The notes under the pieces: model-generated
Database searches by the model: none
What the model was told of the DNA's origin: nothing
What the model saw: only the letters and a program-made list of their open reading frames with translations
Part shown: in pieces, positions 24,494-50,429 of the stretch
Numbering within the stretch: position 1 is the first letter of the stretch
Layout of the letters: each line of letters starts with the position of its first letter
Made by a program: the position numbers and the translations under genes
Assembly: GCA_947184155.2 (NCBI GenBank)
Contig: CAMXCT020001990.1
Coordinates: 1-64,000, forward strand
Direction: 5' to 3'
Length of the DNA: 64,000 nt
DNA from: Cladocopium goreaui
Lineage: Eukaryota; Sar; Dinophyceae; Suessiales; Symbiodiniaceae

Positions 24494-26233
24494 TCAATGA
24501 ACATGGAATGAATCCTGCTTTTCTGCAACCTTCTGGTCCCTGTTTTTTTTTAGTCCTGCACAGACCCCGGCATTGCTGTCAAAGCAGGGTGTGTTGTTAG
24601 GGTTGTAGCAATTTTCACATTTGGACAATGTTTTGGGGCACAGTGCTTCGCACTTCTCCAGTGGGGATGGCGGTCTAACTTCACACCATGCCTTTCCAGG
24701 CGCCTGCTCACACTCGAAGCGAGTCCAATGTAAGTCGGGATCATTCTGCACTTTCCCAGGAGCGGTGCAGCTTACGGTTTCATCAGCTGTGAAATTTGTT
24801 GGCTCACATTGCAATTTTTGGGTGCTCAATAGCATGCAGGCATATCTTTTGTTGCCGAGTGGGAGAGAATATCCTTGGCATTGCCTGAGAGTACTATTGA
24901 CTTTGGCTTCGTCCTTCACATGGTCAAGCAATTCCTCGCACTTCTTGATGTTTGTGAGATCCTGCGGGTCATAGTCCGGACAATCTTCTGGGCAACATTT
25001 GCCATTGGTGTTGCAAATTTCAGTGCCCTTTGTTGGACACTTGCCTTTCACTTTGCCTTCGCACTTGGCAGTGAAAGTAGTGCTTTTCAAGGTGCCATCA
25101 CAGTCCTTGTCCCCCCAGAGACAAATGTCCACACTGAGGACTTGTTCTCCTGGGCTGGCGTTGTCGCACGAAATGTCTTTTCGGTCATCGTGCGGGGCCG
25201 TGAAGCAGTCTTGGTCAGGTCCCCCGATGTCCTTCTCATCTTCTCCGAAGGAGCACTGGAAAATGTTTTTTGGCAAAGACCTGGCGCTGTCCCAAGGGCA
25301 TTCGCAATTGCCGCCCTTGTTGAAGTGGCAATCGAGGTCTTTGGCCGCCTTGACCTTGTACCCCCGTTGGTTGAAGTATGAGCACCAGCCACCATTGCGC
25401 TCCTTACACTCGTCGTAGTTGTAGCATGCCCCCATGCCCCACCAACCTTCACGATATGGGTGTTTCACACTGTCCGTGGGGCATCCGCCATGACACCCGG
25501 CATCATGAGGATCGGGGCACGACCAATTAGACGGGTTTGAGGGACCACCAACCGATTTGCAATTGTCATCAGTTGCCGACTTGTTGAAAGTAATGTTGCA
25601 GTAGCTCTTGCCAACCCAAGACTTATCCAGGCACTCGCCGGGAGCACCATTGGGAATCGCAGACAAGTCCCAATTGAAAGATTTTGCCGACTCCTCGATG
25701 GTGAATTCCATCTTCACTGTTTGCTGGATGGCATTACCTCTCTGACCGTATATTTGTGTGAAGTTTGGCACAGCGGCGTAGAAAACACCGGACCAATCTT
25801 CTGGCACGGGAAAATTGTAAGACTTGTTGCCACCTTTGTGACTAAACAGTTTGCAGGTGCCTAAGTCCGTGGAGTTGAACTTCCAGCGAGTGCCGGCCAG
25901 TCTGCCTTGGCCCAAGATCCACCAGCCATCTGTGGCCTGGTCGGTTTTGGTATTGAAAGTAACCTGGGTGAAGTCGAAAGGAGCATAATGGGAGCAATTG
26001 GAAGTCAAACACTTCCTGAATGTCTCGAGCAAACAACACCGGGCATCACCAGCCAGTGGCGATGTCGACATGCTGCAGCCGCAAACTTTTCTATCGTCAT
26101 AGTGTAAACACTCGGAGGCATGGGTGAAAAAGTTCTGGCATTCTTGGCTACATGTTTGCCGCAACCCCTCTGTCTCTTGCCAGGCGGCAAGTATCAAAAG
26201 CAGTACTCTCGGGAGGAAGCCCACCTGTGCCAT
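24494..26233 (-). CDS. Secreted cysteine-rich protein, possibly thaumatin-like, single exon
   Basis: The chosen start (26,233) is the second in-frame ATG, because it places a classic signal peptide at the N terminus (MAQVGFLPRVLLLILAAW); an ATG at 26,344 would add 37 residues in front. The mature part of about 560 residues has dozens of Cys residues and many NxS/T sites, so it is probably an extracellular, disulfide-rich, glycosylated protein. VPEDWSGVF followed later by MEFTIEES and DLSAIPNGAP recalls the order of motifs in thaumatin-like proteins (W-S-G-R, then EFT, then YDVS), but the characteristic thaumatin Cys pattern was not verified. The rest (WWGMGACYNYDECKERNGG) was not recognised. 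It lies about 300 bp downstream of the calpain gene on the same strand and, unlike its neighbours, shows no intron. Confidence 0.75.
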   Translation of the reverse strand: MAQVGFLPRVLLLILAAWQETEGLRQTCSQECQNFFTHASECLHYDDRKVCGCSMSTSPLAGDARCCLLETFRKCLTSNCSHYAPFDFTQVTFNTKTDQATDGWWILGQGRLAGTRWKFNSTDLGTCKLFSHKGGNKSYNFPVPEDWSGVFYAAVPNFTQIYGQRGNAIQQTVKMEFTIEESAKSFNWDLSAIPNGAPGECLDKSWVGKSYCNITFNKSATDDNCKSVGGPSNPSNWSCPDPHDAGCHGGCPTDSVKHPYREGWWGMGACYNYDECKERNGGWCSYFNQRGYKVKAAKDLDCHFNKGGNCECPWDSARSLPKNIFQCSFGEDEKDIGGPDQDCFTAPHDDRKDISCDNASPGEQVLSVDICLWGDKDCDGTLKSTTFTAKCEGKVKGKCPTKGTEICNTNGKCCPEDCPDYDPQDLTNIKKCEELLDHVKDEAKVNSTLRQCQGYSLPLGNKRYACMLLSTQKLQCEPTNFTADETVSCTAPGKVQNDPDLHWTRFECEQAPGKAWCEVRPPSPLEKCEALCPKTLSKCENCYNPNNTPCFDSNAGVCAGLKKNRDQKVAEKQDSFHVH

Positions 26234-26530
26234 GCTGCCGTCCCGTCCAATCTCAGCAACAAAAATTGGAGCCAAATGTGACGGCGCGCCATTGACTAAA
26301 ATACGAATCAATCTCGAATGACGGCATGCCACGGTACTGACCATCTTTTAAGGGCCCTACTTTTTTTTGGCAGCTGCTTCCATTTCCCTAAATGCATTGC
26401 TGAACATCGAGCTTGCTTTGCAAGCCCAAACAATGCCCAGCTGCCACCATGGGCAGTCACAACTGGCAAAACCGACTCTAAGAATCTCTGGCCATCTTCT
26501 TTAAGGGTGGCCTCAAGGCAAAGGTACCAT

Positions 26531-26665: not shown

Positions 26666-29600
26666 CTTTCATGGAATTCTTATACCGGTTTTTGAAGTCA
26701 AAGCACAAATAAAGGACCGGACCCAAAGCGAGGAAATAACATAACACACACACACACGCACACACACACACTGGACTGGTTTTAAGAATTGGAGCTGGTT
26801 CCAAATTGGTCGCGTCGAATCGTGCGGATAGTTCGTTCTGCAGGGTTTTAACTTAAAAGATTTGGCAATTCCTACCTGGTAGACCTTGTCAAGGCTGTAT
26901 CCAAGAACGCAAGGTTGAAGAGGTCGAAAAGGTCGAAGCGGTCGTGAAACCAGATTTCAAATTGCAGTGCAACAGCAAAAAATCGCTTGCTGAAAATGGA
27001 TAACGGAATAGAAAACAAACAGCGCATGAACAGAACCGAAGTCAACAGTTTTAACCAGTTTTAACCAAGCAGGTACACAACTGAGCGTCCTCAGTTGCTT
27101 CCCCTTCAGTGACACAGCTTCGTTGGGCAAGGTAGTCACTGAAGGCCTTGCCCCCCTGCATGTGTAGTTAACCATTCCCTGTGCTAGAAGGGTTTACACA
27201 CACACGCCCCACGACGGGGCAAAACTTGCTATGACAAGTGTGAGCGCATGTAATTTGTAGAATGGCGCTAGCTACAATCGAACGAAAACTGCTCCAAAAC
27301 TGCTCTATACCATGATTGGGTGTGGTAGGCGCCAGAATTGGCTGCTGCAGTAACAGAAACCTTGTTGGATGAACCTGCCAACCCTTATACCTGGGTAACG
27401 CCATGACTCCTAAGGACGCGCGTAATGTCCGGCGAGAAGGGGCAACAAAGTTTCGTGCGTTTATTTCGACCTATATCCTAGCGCACTCAGTGTCAAGCAC
27501 GCTTGTGACGCCACATGTCGCACGAAAGCATCTATTTATTAAATTGTTCGTCTATTTAAACGTGAAATCCTGGGTTTTTCGGCTTTGCCCAGTCGCCATC
27601 ACCTGTAGATGATTTAACGGATCAAAAGAAATGTGACCGTCATATCCGGTTGTGGTATCACATGTATGGTCAGCGCAGCGTTCTGCATTTTTTACTGCGC
27701 ACATTCATCAAGAACGGTTGGAATCAGAATCTGTTCAATAATCCAGGAACGCGTCCTATCGGCGTGGTCAGTGTTGTTTCGAATCTTGGCCGCCCAGTTC
27801 CAAAGTTGTTGCTTCACTGCGCGCATTGTCAATCCGGAGCGCAACGCAATAACACAAAGATCTTGAATTTGAGGAATGACCAGCGATTTTGGGTGTGTGT
27901 ATCTGAGGACCATCAGTAAGCGCGCTGCAAATGCTGAAGACAAGGCAAGATCGGATCCTTGACTAATGCTGGAGCGATAGTGACTCATATCATGATGGAA
28001 ACGAACTGTAGTGGTTCTTTGATCTGTGTCGACGTGTACCCCCAATAATATTGGGTCAGACACTTCTTCAAGCAAAATAGGCGCTCCATAGAATTCTGCA
28101 TGTGTGAAGACGGACCAAATAGGAGAACAACGCCATGATCCAAAGCCCATCATAGCCCGGTTATCCACATATCGGGTATTGCACAACAGTCGATTTGCCG
28201 CGATCATATCCTCGAATGTTTTGGAAAAAATGTGTTCTTGACATGCTGCTACGAGTCCGCATAACGCCGGGGCAAAGTGTGAACCCATACTAGCACCTTG
28301 AACTTGCTTAAACAGATGCCGACCAACCATGAAATATGAATTACGTAGAAGAAAGGAAACCATTGCAGGTAGATGAATCAAACTGACTTGCGTCGTACGA
28401 TTGCCAGCTCGTCGATACCGACCACGAAAAATTCGTTGGGCAGATTCACGATCTTGAAGTTGGAAAGTAATAGTGCTGTCCAGAGACACATTGTACTTGT
28501 GACAATACACATGCAACGCATACCATACACTGTCGACCATTCGAGAATGTGGTACCGAATTGAAAAAACCTGATAAGTCTTGTTGGTCCATGTTTATAGG
28601 CAGATGGCTCGGTAAATCATCAAACACATAATGAATTGCCCGCATGATTTGAACAACGTCTTTGTCCAGCGATGTCTCACGAAATAATGACCGAATCAGC
28701 TGTAATACTACCCCTCCAATGACTTCGCCTAATCGGTTGTTCCAACTGTTTGTATATGCAATGATCGGACGCGCCGCTTCAAAATGTTTGCTAGGTTTGG
28801 GAAGAATATACGCACATGGGCACTTTCCACCAGGTGAGGCCAATTTTCGCAAGTGAGGTGGAAGGCTATCTCCCAAATCGACCATAACTCGTGGGAAAAC
28901 TGTGTTCCAACCGACAGAACATCTGACAAACACGTCAGGTGTCATGAACGTTTTCATGAGGAGGTGGTGATAATGATGTGGGCAACACAAATGAGCTCGA
29001 TGAGGATGGTGATCAGCTGGGCAAATGACGAACCTTCTTATACTACGCAATTCACGAAACAGGGCTTGGAATGTACAAACACCGTCACGGGAAACTGCTT
29101 GGACATGTTGTTGCCAAATATAGTGACACATGTAGTTCCATATGGTTGTGAACCGTCTTCCTAGCCGCCATCTTTCGCACCATTTAGCAAATTGTTGTTG
29201 TGCATCTGTGATCCAGCGTCTTTGTGATGGAAACACGGTGTCAGCTAAGTTCAGATGTCCAACCAGTAACGTTGGAAACAACCCACTTGCTGTGCTGAAC
29301 ACATGTCCAGTTGAACGTACATGATCTCCATAATCAAATGTACCGCAAGCCATACATTCAAACACGCATTCGTCTGGGGACCAGCTCTGCAAGAAAGAAT
29401 GGAAATTGAAAACGAAATCTGAAAAAGGCCTGTTTCGTCGCAGAACAACATGTGTGGTTGGTACATGAAACCAGGGAAACAAACAGGAATGATGTTGCAG
29501 CAGCTCTCGAAGCCACGTTCGAACTAGGTCTTTCACATCGCACTGCAGGGGCAACAGCAACATTGGCACATTCGCGGGGGGGGCATGCCCACCTTTGAAC

Positions 29601-32600
29601 TCAAGGCAGTTTTTTAGCGATCGTTGCGCACGCGTGCGCCAGGGTTCATCTATCTGGTGTACAAGTTTGTAAAGCATGTACAGAAACTCAAGGTTTACCT
29701 GCGAACTCCGTAGAACTTGTGCTGCATGGAACTTTCGTCGAGTTGTGCATCCTAGCCAGTACAACAGCTCGAACAAGTGTGTAGGCTGCTTCCACATGCG
29801 ACTCATGGCAGATTCGTCCAGGGCACAGTTAGCAAGGAAGGAGAAACGATCGTGTACACGCTTGCCGGCTGCTTCACAAGGCATAGAAAAATTCAAAGGG
29901 GCAGCAACGCCGTGTTTCTTCAATAATGGATTGACAAATGGGTGGTTCAACATAGGCCTGAGCTGACCGATTAATGTCGTTTCTGCTGCTCGCAATGCAA
30001 TTTCATCGTCAATTTGCTGCAATGGAATTATGATGAAATGAAAAAATGTTTGGGTGCTCTGCCAAATCTTCAGTGCTGGTTCAAAGAAGGCGTCAACTCC
30101 TTTACGCAGTTGCTCATACTTTCGATAGCGACTATATTCCCTATCCATAGGTGTATTTGTTGTACTGCCCACGTACCACCAGGTAGCGTGCTCTTGGACG
30201 CAAGAAGTTTTTAAATACACCCATCCTGGCGAGTGGAATTGCTCAAACGTAGAATTTCCTGTGATCTCTTGTGATTTGAGAAACCGTGCTAATTTGATCC
30301 ATGTTTTCGTCGTGGTGCTGCACATGTTCTTCAACAGAACGAACCTGGTGAAAAGCATCGTTTCCAACCAGAGGTATCTCCGCATGGAGAAATAGTTGAA
30401 TTGTTCAAAAAAGGTCTTCCGGACTGGTTGTATCCACCGGAAAAACTTGTGAATTATTGCATCTAGGACAAACTTCGTTGATCCCATGAATTGTAAGTCA
30501 AAACTGGTCATGCATGCATCCGCAAAATGCGGACAAAGTCAGCGGTGCAAATGGTTCAAAATCGTGAGGAGCTTGAGAGCCTCCCCTGGCTTGAATTTGG
30601 TTGCATCACTGGGCTCCATGCCCCAACTCACCAACATCCGCTGTAGAGACGGTGCTTGGCCAGCATCGAGTTTCTCGTACATTTCCTTAAACTCCCTGGC
30701 ACGTCGATCAATCTCAGCATGCTGCTTCGTATCTGGAACCTGCGACTTCATCCAAGAATTGATACACTGCACAGTATGGTTTTTGGGACCTGTGGATTCT
30801 AAATGGTTTGGGCGGTCTCGTACTGCCAGTTCTGTCAGCTTGCTCAGTGCCTGAGTTGTTGCGTTTCCTTGTCCGCTGAATGGCAATGTCTGTTGCCCTG
30901 GTTGTCGTGTGCTGTCTGCAGTACCTGGGGGTGAGGTGCTGGGGCCAGCAGGCGTGGGAAGAGCCTGGAGGGTGTGGGGAGGTGAATGGGATGGCATGTT
31001 CCTGCTTGGTGCTATCCCTGGTACTGCGGGCTCTGCTTGGGATTGATGCGAATTGTCAGCAGCACCTTGACCTACTTGCATACGAAGTCTGGCATTCTCC
31101 TCTTCCATTCTACGTAATCGTTCCATCAACTGATTGGAAGGGTCCTGTGGGAGAATGGTGCGGAACTGTTCCATGGTGAAATCGGCCAATGCTTCTAGGG
31201 CTGCTTTTCTGGCACTCCACTGTGTTAAATCTGTGGACAAACCCTGTTTGGCCGCAGCACCTGACAGTAGTTGATTGAAATCAACTTGCTGCTCACGAAG
31301 AATTTTCATAAGGGCTGATGTAAAGTAGCATTCTTGACGGGAACGAAACAACTCAAGGAATGTGGCTTTGCCATTTGCCAACAGACGTAGGCACCAATTC
31401 TGAGACATGTTGTGGATGATAGGGATAAGCTTCACCTCATGAATAGGTACATTGTCGATGCCAAGGTTTCTACTGACAGACGTTGAGATGACCTGACGAG
31501 GGAGTGCTAGGCCATAGACTAAGTTGGTGTCCAAAAAGTCCTGGTTGGGTTTCCATGTGTCAGGAATCTCGTAATGGTTTTCCCATCGGTCTTCCGAAGC
31601 CTGTGGGAGGTGTATTTGATGTCTCGCAGGTACTGGGGAACTACCTGACCTTCTTGGAGCCTTTCTGTGATGCGAATTGGACGTCTCATGTTGCCTCACA
31701 TATCCTCGGGACGGTCGCAGTCGCAAATCATCTTCATGCCTTCGACGATCACGGGCAGGGGACCGCGAACGGCGTCGGGAATCACCGCGTCCCATTGTGC
31801 GCACGCTGGATAAGCAAATTGAAAACTTGCTACAACTGTCCAATGCAGCAGTATGATGTTTGAAAGGATACTTGGAGAATGTGCCTATCTGGATAACGAG
31901 CATATTACTTTGTGTTCATGTCTGTATGTCTGTTATATATGCGCGCGCTGGACCAAGTGGCGAGATGTATCAGATTCGACTTCATGAAGCATGAAGCAAA
32001 AATACGTGTCAAGGTTGTCAATATGGTTCTAAAATCTGTGTTATCGCAACATGTACACTAGATTGACATCCTGGGTTTCTGGCTTTGCCCAGTAGCCATC
32101 AAACGACACGTGCGTATCAAAACATACATGGTGAAACTGACATCCTGGGTTTTTCCGGCTTTGCCCAGTGGCCATCAGACGAAGTTTCCCTGTAATACAT
32201 GTTTTGTCTTAGAACTCAACGTCAGGTGTTATCTGAAACTCTCAAAGTCTCATTTACTTAACAAAACAATCAAATAACCACATCATAGCAACAAAGAGGC
32301 ATTTGAGGTCTTTTTCAGCTCCGTTTCTTGTCACGAAAAGGGAAATTACATTGTGCAAACCCTGTTGGTTTTAAGCACCTCGATGTGTACCGAACTCATT
32401 TAAATCCAGCTTTTTCTTTGTCAATGTAGGAAATTCCTAAGACTTTGGACAGATGTGTGCGAGCAAGCCATCGTTTTTCGCGGGTTTGGTGAACTGTATC
32501 AAACCAGTGCGCACATGCTGTCTCAGCGAGGACTCCACCTCCATGTAGTGTGTAGTGACAATTTTGTCTCAATCCAGCAATCCCAATCACCTGAACTTCT

Positions 32601-35600
32601 TTGTTATTCGATTGTCGTGCAGTTTTTAACAGGACTTGGCGACGAAGGTTTTTCCAATTTTGTTCTGTTACCTTGGTGTCAATAATCCGACAGAAAAACC
32701 CTGGACTTGGGTACCATTGTTCGTTTTGTTCATCAATATTGCATGATGGTAAGATCACCTGGTTCTGGATGATGGGAATCGCTGCTTCCATACTGGTACC
32801 ATGTCCAAAAGGATAAAAGCATCGAAATGGAATGGGTTGGCATGAGTGTCCATCAATCATTGGTGATGGAAAGCCAAAAGGAAAGAAAAAGGCCAGCCCA
32901 ATGTTGCCACACTGTGTGTCATGAATCAGCTCGCATTCCGTGAGCATTGTAGTCCAGTTGGGGATGTACTTCAAAATGTCCATGAAAACCTGCGCAGTCG
33001 CCCTGTGAACCAATGTAGATTCAATGTGATGTAAACGAAGGAACTCATCAAACATGGCCCATTCCCATCTAGGTTGTGGCAGACTCGGCCGGGGAAACTC
33101 ATGAAATGCTTTGATTCGGATTTCCTGAAGCATCAGACCTTTCAGTTCCTGCAATATTTCAGATACGTCAAGCCACTTGGCGTGATTGACCAGTGCCGCG
33201 TCAATCGCCGGGGAATCTATACAATATGTAACCGCTGTAGACCAAAGTTCCAAGTGTTTGCGCGTCTTGAGCTCAATCATGTCCAACTGTAATGGGTACA
33301 CCCGTATGAAGCAGTAAGAGAGTTTGGCAAGATTTACTTGGTTGAGCATAGTTTCAAACTTCCATGGAACCTGTCCTGTTGTAAACTTCCAATGTACAGG
33401 GATCGCAACATCATACTTAGTGTCTTCGCGATCACTCAGAGTGGGGGTTGAATCATTCAATGCCGGGCATGACGCTGCCTGTTGTTGTAAAAACTGAATG
33501 GCTGGTCGTGGTGGTGGAGGAGGAGGCACATATTGTCGAAATAAATTGACTACATTTGGGTCCGTCAGGATGGACGTGTCATGAATTTCAACTCGACAAC
33601 CATGTGCAGACATGTCCAATACCAATTTAGGTCGCGATGGGGCAGATTTGGCACCTAGTCCTCTTGCATTGGGTGATCGGGATCTATGACGCCGACGATC
33701 TCGAGAAGGGGAAAGTGCATGGTGCGGCATATGGAGAGCGCGTGTATTCAAAGTGGTTCAATATTTGGGGCACTGGACACCTTCAGAGTGATTAAACCAA
33801 TTCTTAACAAGAAAAACCTTTCTAGTCAACAACCATTGGTAAAAACAAATCAACACCTGAAGCCAACCTTTTAGAGCCAAATTTTCATCGTGAGTTAACA
33901 TCCTGGGTTTTTTCGGCTTTGCCCAGTCGCCATCATACGAAAATGACATGTCAAAACATGTCAAAACATCAGATTGACATCCTGGGTTTTCGGCTTTGCC
34001 CAGTCGCCATCAGATGAGGTTTACGCATTAAACCATTTAAAGTAGACTGACATCCTGGGTTTTTTCGGCTTTGCCCAGTAGCCATCGGACGAAGTTTACG
34101 CGTCAAACGTGTAAAAGTTATAGATTGACATCCTGGGTTTTTTCGGCTTTGCCCAGTCGCCATTATACGAAGTTTTCGTTTCAAAACGTGTATATACAAA
34201 TTAGTCTGACATCCTGGGTTTTCGGCTTTGCCCAGTTGCCATCACAGGAGATATATGCACTAAACGATGTAAACCTAGACATCCTGGGTTTTTTCGGCTT
34301 TGCCCAGTAGCCATCAGACGAAATTTACGCGTCAAACGTGTAAAAGTTATAAATTGACATCCTGGGTTTTTCGGCTTTGCCCAGTCGCCATTATACGAAG
34401 TTTTTCGTTTCAAAACGTGTACAAATAGTCTGACATCCTGGGTTTTCGGCTTTGCCCAGTTGCCATCAGAGGTGATTTACGCACAAAAAAAAAAACCTGC
34501 ACCTATAAACTGACATCCTGGGTTTTTCGGCTTTGCCCAGTGGCCATCAGATCAAAATTACGCGTCAAACATGTAAAAGTGGTAGACTGACATCCTGGGT
34601 TTATCGGCTTTGCCCAGTCGCCATTATACGAAGTGTGCGTTTCAAAACATGTAAAACTAGACAGACATCCTGGGTTTTCGGCTTTGCCCAGTCGCCATTT
34701 TACGAGGTTTTCGTTTCAAAACGTGTACAAACTAGTCTGACATCCTGGGTTTTCGGCTTTGCCCAGTCGCCATCACAGGAGATATACGCACTAAACGATG
34801 TAAACCTAGACTGACATCCTGGGTTTTTTCGGCTTTGCCCAGTAGCCATCAGACGAAATTTACGCGTCAAACGTGTAAAAGTTATAGATTGACATCCTGG
34901 GTTTTTCGGCTTTGCCCAGTCGCCATTATACGAAGTTTTTCGTTTCAAAACGTGTACAAATAGTCTGATATCCTGGGTTTTCGGCTTTGCCCAGTTGCCA
35001 TCAGAGGTGATTTACGCACTAAATCATGTACCTATAAACTGACATCCTGGGTTTTTCGGCTTTGCCCAGTGGCCATCAGATGAAAAATACGCGTCAAACA
35101 TGTAAAAGTGATAGACTGACATCCTGGGTTTATCGGCTTAGCCCAGTCGCCATTATACGAAGTGTTCGTTTCAAAACATGTAAAACTAGACTGACATCTT
35201 GGGTTTTCGGCTGTGCCCAGTCGCCATTATACGAAGTTTTCGTTTCAAAACGTGTACAAATTAGTCTGACATCCTGGGTTGTCGGCTTTGCCCAGTCGCC
35301 ATCACAGGAGATTTGCGCACTAAACCATGCACGTATAAACTGACATCCTGGGTTTTTCGGCTTTGCCCAGTGGCCATTAGATGACAATTACGCGTCAAAC
35401 ATGTAAAAGTGATAGACTGACATCCTGGGTTTATCGGCTTTGCCCAGTCGCCATTATACGAAGTGTTCGTTTCAAAACATGTATAAACCTAAGCTGACAT
35501 CCTGGGTTTTCGGCTTTGCCCAGTCGCCATCAAAGGAGATTTGCGCATTAAACCATTTAAAGTAGACTGACATCCTGGGTTTTTTCGGCTTTGCCCAGTG

Positions 35601-38600
35601 GCCATCAGACGAAATTTACGCTTCAAACGTGTAAAGTTATAGATTGACATCCTGGGTTTATTGGCTTTGCCCAGTCGCCATTATACGAAGTTTTCGTTTC
35701 AAAACGTGTACAAAAAGTCTGATATCCTGGGTTTTCGGTTTTGCCCAGTCGCCACCAGATGAGATTTACGCGTTTAAACACCCCACAAAAGGACAACACC
35801 TAAAACTTTCAAATTATGGGGAAAAACAAAACTTGGCATAAAGCAAACATAGTCACGATCTTGGTTTTGATGCATTTTAGCTGCATGTGTTCTCTGAACT
35901 ATTCTCCTTGTCTCTGACTGCTTGTGGCTTTGCCTGAAGTTGGACGTCCCTTCTAGGGTGCTTATGGTCTAAGCCTGCACGAGCTCTTGTTTGCATGCCT
36001 CTCAGCTGCCTTGGCATTTCGAGCCTGAACTGGGTCTCTGACCTGTCTTGTTTGCACACTACCCCTGCAACACAGAGGTATGGAGCCCCCCCGGACTATA
36101 TAAGCCGGGGCGACATTAACACACTGGACTGGTTTTAAGAATTGGAGCTGGTTCCAAATTGGTCGCGTCGAATCGTGCGGATAGTTCGTTCTGCAGGGTT
36201 TTAACTTAAAAGATTTGGCAATTCCTACCTGGTAGACCTTGTCAAGGCTGTATCCAAGAACGCAAGGTTGAAGAGGTCGAAAAGGTCGAAGCGGTCGTGA
36301 AACCAGATTTCAAATTGCAGTGCAACAGCAAAAAATCGCTTGCTGAAAATGGATAACGGAATAGAAAACAAACAGCGCATGAACAGAACCGAAGTCAACA
36401 GTTTTAACCAGTTTTAACCAAGCAGGTACACAACTGAGCGTCCTCAGTTGCTTCCCCTTCAGTGACACAGCTTCGTTGGGCAAGGTAGTCACTGAAGGCC
36501 TTGCCCCCCTGCATGTGTAGTTAACCATTCCCTGTGCTAGAAGGGTTTACACACACACACACATATATATATATACACATAATAACATGAAATAACTAGT
36601 AAACCATCACTGTCCATTTGCTAGCCATCCTAGCTCTTCAACTTCCATAAACGTCTCTAATCAGTGAACCACGTCCAATTCAGAAGAATAAACAGTGTCA
36701 AAGACAGGCACGGGCTGCTTCCTATAAGGCAGTCAACAATGGGAAAAAAAACAACAGACAAGTACCAGCAAAAAAATGTCTCCTCATATGACATCCAGAA
36801 TGAACCTTCATCACGTCGAACAACTCCAATGCGCTTGGAGAGCTCTGGGTTCTCTGCCCACTTGCCCGAAGCAAGGCCTTTGTTGAAGATGTTGTAGTCT
36901 GCCCAGTCACCTTTCCATTCTCCGCTTCCCCAAGGATTGGCCAACTGGACCAATCTCAATGGCTGTCCGTTGTCCATCTTCTCCGAAGTCACCTACGCTG
37001 TGGAATATGGCAGTGGTGCCAGCATCATCCAAAGCTCCAAACATGTCAAAATCGGTGAAAATAAGTTTGAATCCGCCGGGTTTGCTCGGGCATTTGATGG
37101 AAAGTTGTGTCATGTTATGTCTAGGTTCAGCTCAACTTGTAGATTTTCCATTTCTGAAGCCCCTTCCCCATCCCCAACCAGGAGAACAGCGTAGCAAATC
37201 TAGCAAGACGACAGAATACAAGCCAACACAAGCAAACGTCATCAGTTCAAAAGGATGATGTGACATTCTGAAAACATACATGATACGCAGTAGATACAGA
37301 TATGTTGAGCGCCTTACTGGTTTACATGCAAGCTTCCTAGAAACTGACTGTAGCACATCAATGCGACACATCTCTCCCTCTAGATCGAGGAACTACAAAC
37401 ATGATAATGCGTCAATATATCCATGCTAATGCAGTTTTAAGCAATTTTGCAGTTTCATCCACAGAGAGGAAATGCTGTTGCCAAGAACCAAGAGTCTATA
37501 ATAAAGTAGTTGAGTAGTTGAGACACATCTTTCCATATTTCCCCCGTACAATTGCCACAGTGAGCTGCAAAAAAGGTACACACGCAAGTCATGTTTGCTT
37601 CACAAGTTCCGCATCGAACTGCAATAGATGTGCACGCGCAAGTCATGTCACTTCCACCCAGGGACAACCTTGGACAAAACATCGTGTATGGCAAGAGAAG
37701 TTTACGCCCATTCTCTTGCCCTACTCCTCTCTTCCATCTTCCCAGCCGACATATTCCCACTATTTGCAATCACCCCCTCGGAACCTCCCAACAATCCTCT
37801 TTCCCAATGATTGACTTATTGACTCTTCGTAACTCTCTTGGTGAATGTTGGTTGAAAAACTTAACAACAGTGAACACTCTCCATTCAGCACGGAACCCGA
37901 CAGACATGATGATGCCATTTTGAGGTTTCATCCGCAGAGTTTTTACTAGTTTAACATCTTTCCATATTTCTCCCATACAAGTGCCGCAGTATGCCGCAGT
38001 AAACTGCAAAAGGCTCTGCACGAACACACTTCCCAGGGACAACCCTGGGCAAAGCACCTTCTGTCTGCCCCCTACAAATCATCTGCCTATTCTTTTCCCT
38101 TCTCCCACCTTCCCAATCGACATACGATCTCCCCAATCGACATATTGCCCACCACCTTTTAATCCAAACCCCCGAATCATTCCCCTGAAACCCTCCCATC
38201 AAACTGAAACCAAATTTCGGCAGTTCCCAAAGAGGATTCCCCGGGTATATATATGATTATATATGTGCATGTATAAACGCAGCATGCACATGTAGAAATC
38301 CATAGAAATCCCATATTCAATGGCATGTTCCCCGGCTCCCCAGATGCCCATGCGAACTGCAAAGTGCTAGCGGGGCCTGGAGCAAGGCGTAGGCGTGGTG
38401 TACCACGAGCCCATTCTTCAACCGCGCCTCCACCCCCAAGTCTTTGCGATCAATGGAACAAGCCAAAACCTGGCGCTTCAGAAGTGACTCAGACAAGCAT
38501 TTCGCTGGGCCAGGGTGGCCAGGTAGATATTCATGGGGGTATCGAGCTAACAGGCAGGTGGCCCTTGTCTGCAGTCAAAGGCACAAGTTACATCCGGAAA

Positions 38601-49976: not shown

Positions 49977-50425
49977 TCTTAGAATCTCTCAGAATCTCTC
50001 AGAATCTCTCAGAATCTCTCAGAATCCCTTAGAATCTCTCAGAATCTCTCAGAATCTCTCAGAATCTCTCAGAATCTCTCAGAATCTCTTAGAATCTCTT
50101 AGAATCTCTCAGAATCTCTTAGAATCTCTGAGAATCTCTCAGAATCTCTCAGAATCTCTCAGAATCTCTTAAAATCTCTCAGATTCTCTTAGAATCTCTC
50201 AGAATCTCTCAGAATCTCTTAGAATCTCTCAGAATCTCTCAGAATCTCTCAGAATCTCTTAGAATCTCTCAGAATCTCTTAGAATCTCTCAGAATCTCTC
50301 AGAATCTCTCAGAATCTCTCAGAATCTCTCAGAATCTCTTAGAATCTCTCAGAATCTCTCAGAATCTCTTAGAATCTCTTAGAATCTCTCAGAATCTCTC
50401 AGAATCTCTTAGAATCTCTTAGACT
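49977..50425. repeat. 10-bp tandem repeat AGAATCTCTC/T, about 45 units
   Basis: A nearly perfect decamer array in which the last base alternates irregularly between C and T. The 105-residue frame across it (ESLRISQNLS repeats) is an artefact. Confidence 0.95.
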
Positions 50426-50429
50426 CTTA

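Follow-up and report, generated by a model that had tools for sequence, protein, structure and literature searches.

A young, probably Penelope-like element of the dinoflagellate Cladocopium goreaui with three ORFs and an in-frame UGA before its endonuclease-reverse transcriptase

The window analyzed here comprises the first 64,000 nucleotides (forward strand) of contig CAMXCT020001990.1 of the dinoflagellate Cladocopium goreaui (GenBank assembly GCA_947184155.2). Positions 26766-36558 of its minus strand hold a 9,793-bp element which reads from right to left, sits 27 kb from the end of the 667-kb contig and is, with good probability, a young copy of a large and old permuted Penelope-like lineage, with a GIY-YIG endonuclease (EN) N-terminal to the reverse transcriptase (RT). 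Its three open reading frames (ORFs) are all intact: ORF3 with 444 amino acids (aa), ORF2 with 454 aa and EN-RT with 939 aa. An earlier sequence-only reading, which had proposed a permuted Penelope-like element with three intact ORFs and a built-in hairpin array, was correct in its coordinates and, as a whole, is supported in part; counting three ORFs understates the design, as ORF2 and EN-RT form a single frame broken by one UGA, which is most likely read through.

Organization of the element and its copies

From 5' to 3', the element consists of a 440-bp repeat, a TATATA hairpin, a 25-unit array, ORF3, two array units, ORF2, the UGA, EN-RT, one array unit, a palindrome and a second 440-bp repeat. 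The features are as follows (the terms 'RS-rich' (arginine-serine-rich), 'coiled coil' and 'gag-like' and the names of the RT motifs were assigned by eye):

26766..36558, minus strand: whole element; terminal repeats identical, AC/GT microsatellite at both outer sides, ends common to other copies
36119..36558, minus strand: 5' terminal repeat (pseudo-long terminal repeat, pseudo-LTR), 440 of 440 bases matching the 3' repeat
36086..36113, minus strand: GC-rich hairpin with TATATA in the loop region, directly 3' of the 5' repeat, putative promoter
33895..35771, minus strand: array of 25 units of about 75 bp with the invariant core TGGCnACTGGGC..A.CC...AACCCA.GAT
32396..33730, minus strand: ORF3, 444 aa, RS-rich N-terminus, conserved domain at residues 296-437
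32420..32845, minus strand: conserved C-terminal domain of ORF3 with H-[GN]-T
32061..32183, minus strand: two array units between ORF3 and ORF2
30539..31903, minus strand: ORF2, 454 aa, RS-rich N-terminus, likely coiled coil, conserved C-terminal domain
30539..30541, minus strand: UGA stop (UGA C) that separates ORF2 from EN-RT in one frame
30519..30533, minus strand: small stem-loop shortly 3' of the UGA (the whole 76-nt fold is unremarkable, z -0.39)
27692..30511, minus strand: EN-RT ORF, 939 aa from the first ATG, frame open from 30538
29942..30223, minus strand: N-terminal GIY-YIG endonuclease domain, residues 97-190
28160..28774, minus strand: RT motif series RPI; D..GFFNS; QGASMGS..AP; YVDN, residues 580-784
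28160..28171, minus strand: RT motif C, YVDN instead of YxDD
27561..27607, minus strand: lone array unit 3' of the RT
27206..27220, minus strand: palindrome GCCCCGTCGTGGGGC, abutting the 3' repeat on its upstream side
26766..27205, minus strand: 3' terminal repeat (pseudo-LTR), 440 of 440 bases matching the 5' repeat

The identity of the direct terminal repeats bears out the claim that this copy is young. The TATATA hairpin, which may act as the promoter and is retained in a short copy without ORFs (L069), folds with a z-score of -3.08 (0 of 200 shuffles equally good), and the palindrome with -2.59 (3 of 200).

A genome search with the terminal repeat gave 45 matches, 31 of which, on 17 contigs, cover at least 434 of the 440 bases at 98-100% identity. 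Pairs of repeats lie 9,353-10,631 bp apart on seven contigs, two or three repeats lie 1,945-2,173 bp apart on five (C3246, C163, C3005, C324 and C2316), and five contigs have a single repeat each. Judged by spacing, the short intervals represent repeat-body-repeat(-body-repeat) tandems, C3246 and C163 each having a run of three repeats. The family of the window copy (family A) comprises ten large copies, several of them broken, which are 98-100% alike over the stretches compared; eight of their 3' flanks are readable and all differ. Over the 50 nt past the 3' repeat, which itself ends in GT, the G+T content is 82-88% in five of these eight copies and 56-62% in the other three. The one short body read, that of L069 (C3005), has lost the ORFs and keeps both the 5' and the 3' region, along with nine array units and the unit that follows the RT. 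Because this copy has no ORFs, the terminal repeats and the non-coding ends, including part of the array, seem sufficient in cis, the array part being simply what L069 has kept. The remaining short copies also hold exact array-unit sites. Two further loci, C1584:105551-120650 and C4889:1189681-1192566, carry terminal repeats which match those of family A at both ends alone and perhaps belong to a sister family. A diverged relative, L023 (C3270; RT identity 79%), looks internally deleted, with repeat ends on both sides and one array unit left.

Genome searches with the proteins gave at least 51 matches for the RT, at least 96 for ORF2 and at least 95 for ORF3, all lower bounds with only the best candidates scored. 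Co-linearity was counted on 45 of the 51 RT matches, 95 of the 96 ORF2 matches and 89 of the 95 ORF3 matches, the omitted ones being further fragments of copies already entered. Upstream of the 45 RT loci, on the same strand and in the same order, ORF2 was matched in 40, ORF3 in 40 and both in 37. Regarding unpaired matches, no ORF2 was detected for 31 of the 89 ORF3 matches and no ORF3 for 35 of the 95 ORF2 matches, in part through limited sensitivity, as distant families match ORF3 in its last third alone. The RT identity to the window protein is 46-48% in family B, 34-35% in family C and 31-33% in families D and E. With the order ORF3-ORF2-RT kept down to 31-33% identity, the three-ORF plan is old and both extra ORFs are part of the lineage, as the sequence-only reading had supposed; host or captured sequence as their source was ruled out, since both accompany the RT in divergent families. 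The family B element on C5878 measures 8,077 bp, and its repeats of 653-655 bp (GT run excluded) show one base difference and two gap columns when aligned. Repeats of families A and B begin alike, with (GT)nTAAACCCTT, and also close alike, with CAGTGTGT.

The main array holds exactly 25 units, as had been counted before, at a spacing of 72-81 bp; with the three units found outside it the total is 28. With up to three mismatches allowed, the unit pattern matched 10 times in the window, whereas 100 shuffles yielded no match. All 28 window units carry the same 5' arm, CTGGG, and 27 of them have a perfect 3' arm, CCCAG; among 81 distinct units from all loci, which were selected by a pattern demanding TGGGC and a near-CCCAG, the 3' arm is perfect in 77. 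As the stem hardly varies, covariation is no test of the hairpin, and folding was no better than in shuffles (z -1.71, -0.48 and -0.59 for single units, -0.69 for a 301-nt stretch). The 'hairpin' of the sequence-only reading was thus too strong a term.

The exact unit pattern occurs at 65 sites in 1.17 Gb (control, 0), 63 of which lie within 11 kb of a family A terminal repeat. The remaining two exact units, at C3224:469899-470082, have no listed family A terminal repeat nearby. The family B element on C5878 showed no array over the 3.2 kb read, which lead up to its ORF3 and extend into it (one related 5' region), and the unit motif was absent from all five family B loci examined. On the strength of that one 5' region and the genome-wide pattern of sites, the array was rejected as a trait of the whole lineage, contrary to the sequence-only reading, and appears to be confined to family A. 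A known RNA was also considered and rejected, with no Rfam match at family cut-off (best, mir-297 in L037, 47.3 of 90 bits). We take the array for a conserved sequence signal of family A, possibly with a small hairpin.

The endonuclease-reverse transcriptase

The GIY-YIG residues and the QGASMGS motif were found at the places given by the sequence-only reading. Residues V98, Y99, Y113, G115, R124, R128, E177 and N189 are invariant in all seven aligned proteins (one from family A, two from B, four from C). As reference for an EN profile we took four of the GIY-YIG domains that Pfam detects in this genome; hhalign matched the profile to them with a probability of 79%, the tyrosines, glutamate and asparagine being in register; none of 200 column shuffles reached this value (best 2.7%), and unrelated or reversed profiles gave 0-0.1%. 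By this profile comparison the predicted GIY-YIG domain is confirmed. The RT motifs follow one another in a pattern matched by none of 20,000 shuffles, and among 34 frames of at least 300 aa from the window and two stretches of Escherichia coli, EN-RT alone has it; the test is weak because the pattern was drawn from the tested RT itself. As profile searches found no RT, the RT is assigned by its motifs and its fusion to GIY-YIG, so that the permuted Penelope-like element proposed earlier stands by profile for the endonuclease and by motifs alone for the polymerase. A cysteine pair aligned between EN and RT reads CMAC in family A, CPGC in B and CAC in C; the clade with N-terminal EN has a CxC motif between EN and RT and an insertion-in-fingers domain in the RT. 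The stop codon of the ORF is TAA in family A and TAG in B and C.

Several null results weigh against the assignment to Penelope-like elements. Pfam gave no match of any kind to the window EN-RT ORF (on which ground an LTR retrotransposon was rejected), and Pfam and PDB profile searches named no RT or GIY-YIG family or structure for EN-RT, with weak unrelated matches only. Against a two-sequence retron profile the RT gave no signal (probability 0.5%, shuffles up to 1.1%), and Rfam scans of the element (to E 10) and of four other loci (to E 5) contained no hammerhead. A separate class of retroelement which acquired its GIY-YIG domain would fit the missing profile match to known RTs and the translated plasmid search with the RT, whose single match was meaningless. 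It is nevertheless unlikely, given the preference for microsatellites that marks the permuted clade. The union of EN and RT in one ORF, the pseudo-LTR tandems, the palindrome and the TATA near the repeats likewise speak against it, being described as features of Penelope elements (PMC3846280, PMC11167929).

Motif C, as assigned here, is YVDN in every family examined, including all seven aligned RTs of families A, B and C. The string RYVDNR has 891 sites in the genome (reversed control, 61), some of which may belong to other RTs, and RYVDDR has 24 (control, 49), that is, background. Among the RYVDNR matches listed (the first 100, up to contig C360), a site lies inside nine of nine RT matches of families C, D and E, at residue 763-787 in full-length matches and at 610 in one 5'-truncated match; a further ORF2 family has RYVDNR about 2.4 kb past ORF2 on four of four contigs, and on C189 a site lies 722 bp past an ORF2 match, which does not fit this distance.

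The RT genes look constrained: the ratio of non-synonymous to synonymous variation (pN/pS) is 0.24 across all pairs of eight family C copies and 0.40 for the family B pair L018/L020. Family C comprises 22 loci of 97-100% identity, 20 of which keep an RT frame of 923-931 aa (one of the 20 with an internal TAG). Two observations weigh against an active enzyme. The pair L018/L019 differs by one synonymous and five non-synonymous changes and gives no sign of constraint, the changes being too few to tell. Ty1 RT with the equivalent change D211N, in the second D of YXDD, is reported to keep polymerase activity in vitro with a 223-fold lower kpol and to lose transposition (PMC2148107). Both would suit a dead YVDN enzyme, with another RT spreading the copies in trans. 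The low pN/pS of family C, its retained frames and the genome-wide excess of YVDN with RYVDDR at background make that quite improbable. The Cladocopium RT resembles the Ty1 mutant in that N replaces the second D, and differs in that the N is natural here, whereas Ty1 D211N is a laboratory mutant unable to transpose (PMC2148107).

The genome has 62 Pfam matches to GIY-YIG, and in eight inspected loci, four of which supplied the EN reference, no RT ORF was seen by eye. At L002, L003 and L005-L007 (C258, C4323, C211, C957) the GIY-YIG genes adjoin a recurring ORF, about 470 aa long and broken in L003 and L006, that by eye resembles the capsid gene of Polinton-like viruses; Pfam gives no support. 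At L001, positions 1456-2649, a GIY-YIG gene precedes a C5 cytosine methylase gene (Pfam E 2.4e-6).

ORF3, ORF2 and the UGA junction

The last third of ORF3 has H-[GN]-T in the aligned families, with N for H in one of ten copies, and by eye the spacing of this motif from a G is that of Tpt1/KptA in two of four families. Compared with a Tpt1/KptA profile the domain scored weakly (probability 1.6%, 5 of 200 shuffles equally good). Pfam gave a weak match to MoeA_C in five of ten members (best E 0.0078) and none in the window protein; a PDB profile search returned nothing for the domain and weak unrelated matches for the whole of ORF3. An ADP-ribosyltransferase-like fold is suspected from the sequence of this C-terminus. 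ORF3 stops in TGA in families A and C and in TAG in family B and the C2050 family. ORF2 may have a gag-like role.

A base-by-base reading of families A, B and C shows TGA as the end of ORF2, beyond which the RT frame runs on in phase without a further stop; in the C2050 family the end of ORF2 was read in the same way, and the scans of search matches given below report the presence of a TGA, not its place. A single frame is shared by 47 of 58 pairs of ORF2 and RT matches (some loci give two pairs). With a read-through query of family A, 28 of 35 matches span the junction and all 28 (ten from family A, three from B, 15 from C) hold a TGA, some with further stops. With the corresponding query of family C, 34 of 36 matches span it and 33 of these hold at least one TGA; among them the family E matches (48-49% identity) hold a TGA in 11 of 11 cases, nine with no other stop. 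The remaining match, C1593:34879-38730 (43% identity), has ORF2 and EN-RT as one stop-free frame of 1,321 residues. The single in-frame UGA across families and this natural fusion point to a gag-pol-like UGA readthrough, by which the ORF2-EN-RT product is most likely made; as in gag-stop-pol arrangements, the downstream ORF is in frame past a single stop. The UGA is followed by a C in families A, B and C but by an A in C2050, and UGA C has been described as a weaker terminator (PMC9841425).

Other observations weigh against readthrough. Eleven of the 58 pairs are out of frame; four of these are family A copies that join in frame at the junction and have their RT broken at a later point. The C2050 family likewise has TGA at the end of ORF2, followed by 140 open codons in that phase, but its RT match lies in a different phase, perhaps due to decay. 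The fold after the UGA is stable in family C (z -2.49) and not special in A or B, and no equivalent of the window stem-loop was predicted after the UGA in family B. Separate production of ORF2 and EN-RT, with the UGA as an ordinary stop and the RT made by re-initiation or from a spliced-leader trans-spliced mRNA, would be allowed for in family A by an ATG 27 nt past the UGA, where re-initiation is possible, and by the many copies of the dinoflagellate spliced leader in the genome (its 21-mer has 172 sites; reversed control, 0). It would also agree with a report on Tca2 of Candida albicans, according to which the sequence around the gag UGA alone did not direct readthrough in a yeast reporter (PMC2194720). 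This alternative is nonetheless doubtful: in every family read the sole in-frame stop is UGA, C1593 is naturally fused, and likeness extends upstream of the first ATG, the frame from the UGA to that ATG being alike in B and C and the family E matches reaching residue 2 of the C frame.

UGA codons are read as selenocysteine in the Naiad elements of spiders and clams, and the codon here is UGA in every family read. Such decoding is nevertheless very unlikely, with one UGA only, placed at the domain junction, no stop at that place in C1593, and no selenocysteine insertion sequence in the Rfam scans of the element (to E 10) and four other loci (to E 5).

Outside the element, an uninterrupted ORF of 616 aa lies just past its 3' end on the same strand (24494-26344; cysteine-rich by eye, no Pfam match), and positions 49977-50427 of the window hold 45 copies of the 10-bp repeat TCTCAGAATC, 93% alike.

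Proposed life cycle and comparison with known elements

In the life cycle proposed here, the full-length RNA would begin at the TATA hairpin just past the 5' repeat. ORF2 would be made in excess as a gag-like RNA-binding protein, and occasional readthrough of the UGA would yield an ORF2-EN-RT fusion, thereby recruited to the particle of ORF2 and RNA. The GIY-YIG domain may nick GT repeats, with the nicked strand as primer of reverse transcription on the 3'-terminal GU run of the RNA, and insertion as a partial tandem would leave the pseudo-LTRs. The array could serve as a cis signal of family A, perhaps as a binding site for an element protein.

Penelope-like elements, whose RT is telomerase-like, are described as a third class of retroelements in eukaryotes (PMC11167929). 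There is about an even chance that the copies described here represent an old dinoflagellate lineage of this class with a separately reached retrovirus-like gag-(UGA)-pol arrangement, a natural RT with two aspartates (D, YVDN) and a third ORF that is possibly ADP-ribosyltransferase-like. If this is true, the UGA-joined gag-like module would mean that stop-codon bypass as a means of recruiting the polymerase arose in elements other than LTR elements and retroviruses, and the natural YVDN enzyme would make the number of active-site carboxylates needed by an RT directly testable.

We know of no GIY-YIG domain in Tca2. That element resembles the present one in having gag and pol on one RNA, split by a single UGA which needs to be bypassed, and differs as a member of the LTR class with a different RT (PMC2194720).

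The EN (residues 97-190) precedes the RT motifs (residues 580-784) in one and the same ORF, and the copies of the genome include pseudo-LTRs with tandem and partial-tandem arrangements. Naiad and Chlamys, reportedly described by Craig et al. in 2021, are Penelope-like elements which have an N-terminal GIY-YIG domain, pseudo-LTRs, tandem copies, microsatellite targets, no canonical hammerhead and a single ORF. The Cladocopium lineage shares with them the GIY-YIG domain before the RT, the pseudo-LTRs, the tandems and the lack of a canonical hammerhead, and its window copy sits inside a GT microsatellite. The lineage appears to be set apart from that clade by the two extra conserved ORFs, the UGA-joined ORF2-EN-RT, YVDN, the size of 8-10 kb and the dinoflagellate host. 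Chlamys elements occur in the brown alga Ectocarpus, and the 2025 paper in which this is stated describes Penelope-like elements as previously unreported in the supergroup that includes the alveolates (PMC12477816); a search of the open-licence literature (titles and the starts of abstracts) gave no Penelope-like element of a dinoflagellate.

Canonical Penelope/Poseidon elements are described as having GIY-YIG and RT in one ORF and pseudo-LTRs with a palindrome and a TATA box, all of which have counterparts here; their endonuclease is C-terminal, their ORF is single and they carry a hammerhead ribozyme (PMC11167929, PMC3846280). According to PMC6431247, known Penelope-like elements have either one ORF with RT and endonuclease or two ORFs without endonuclease, the large Terminons lacking a fused endonuclease. 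Terminons of bdelloid rotifers share with the Cladocopium element a Penelope-like RT, accessory ORFs (including coiled-coil proteins) and head-to-tail arrays; they are described as telomere-bound, up to 40 kb long and provided with a 3' hammerhead, and as having no endonuclease fused to the RT (PMC6431247), whereas a GIY-YIG domain is present in the three-ORF element of Cladocopium.

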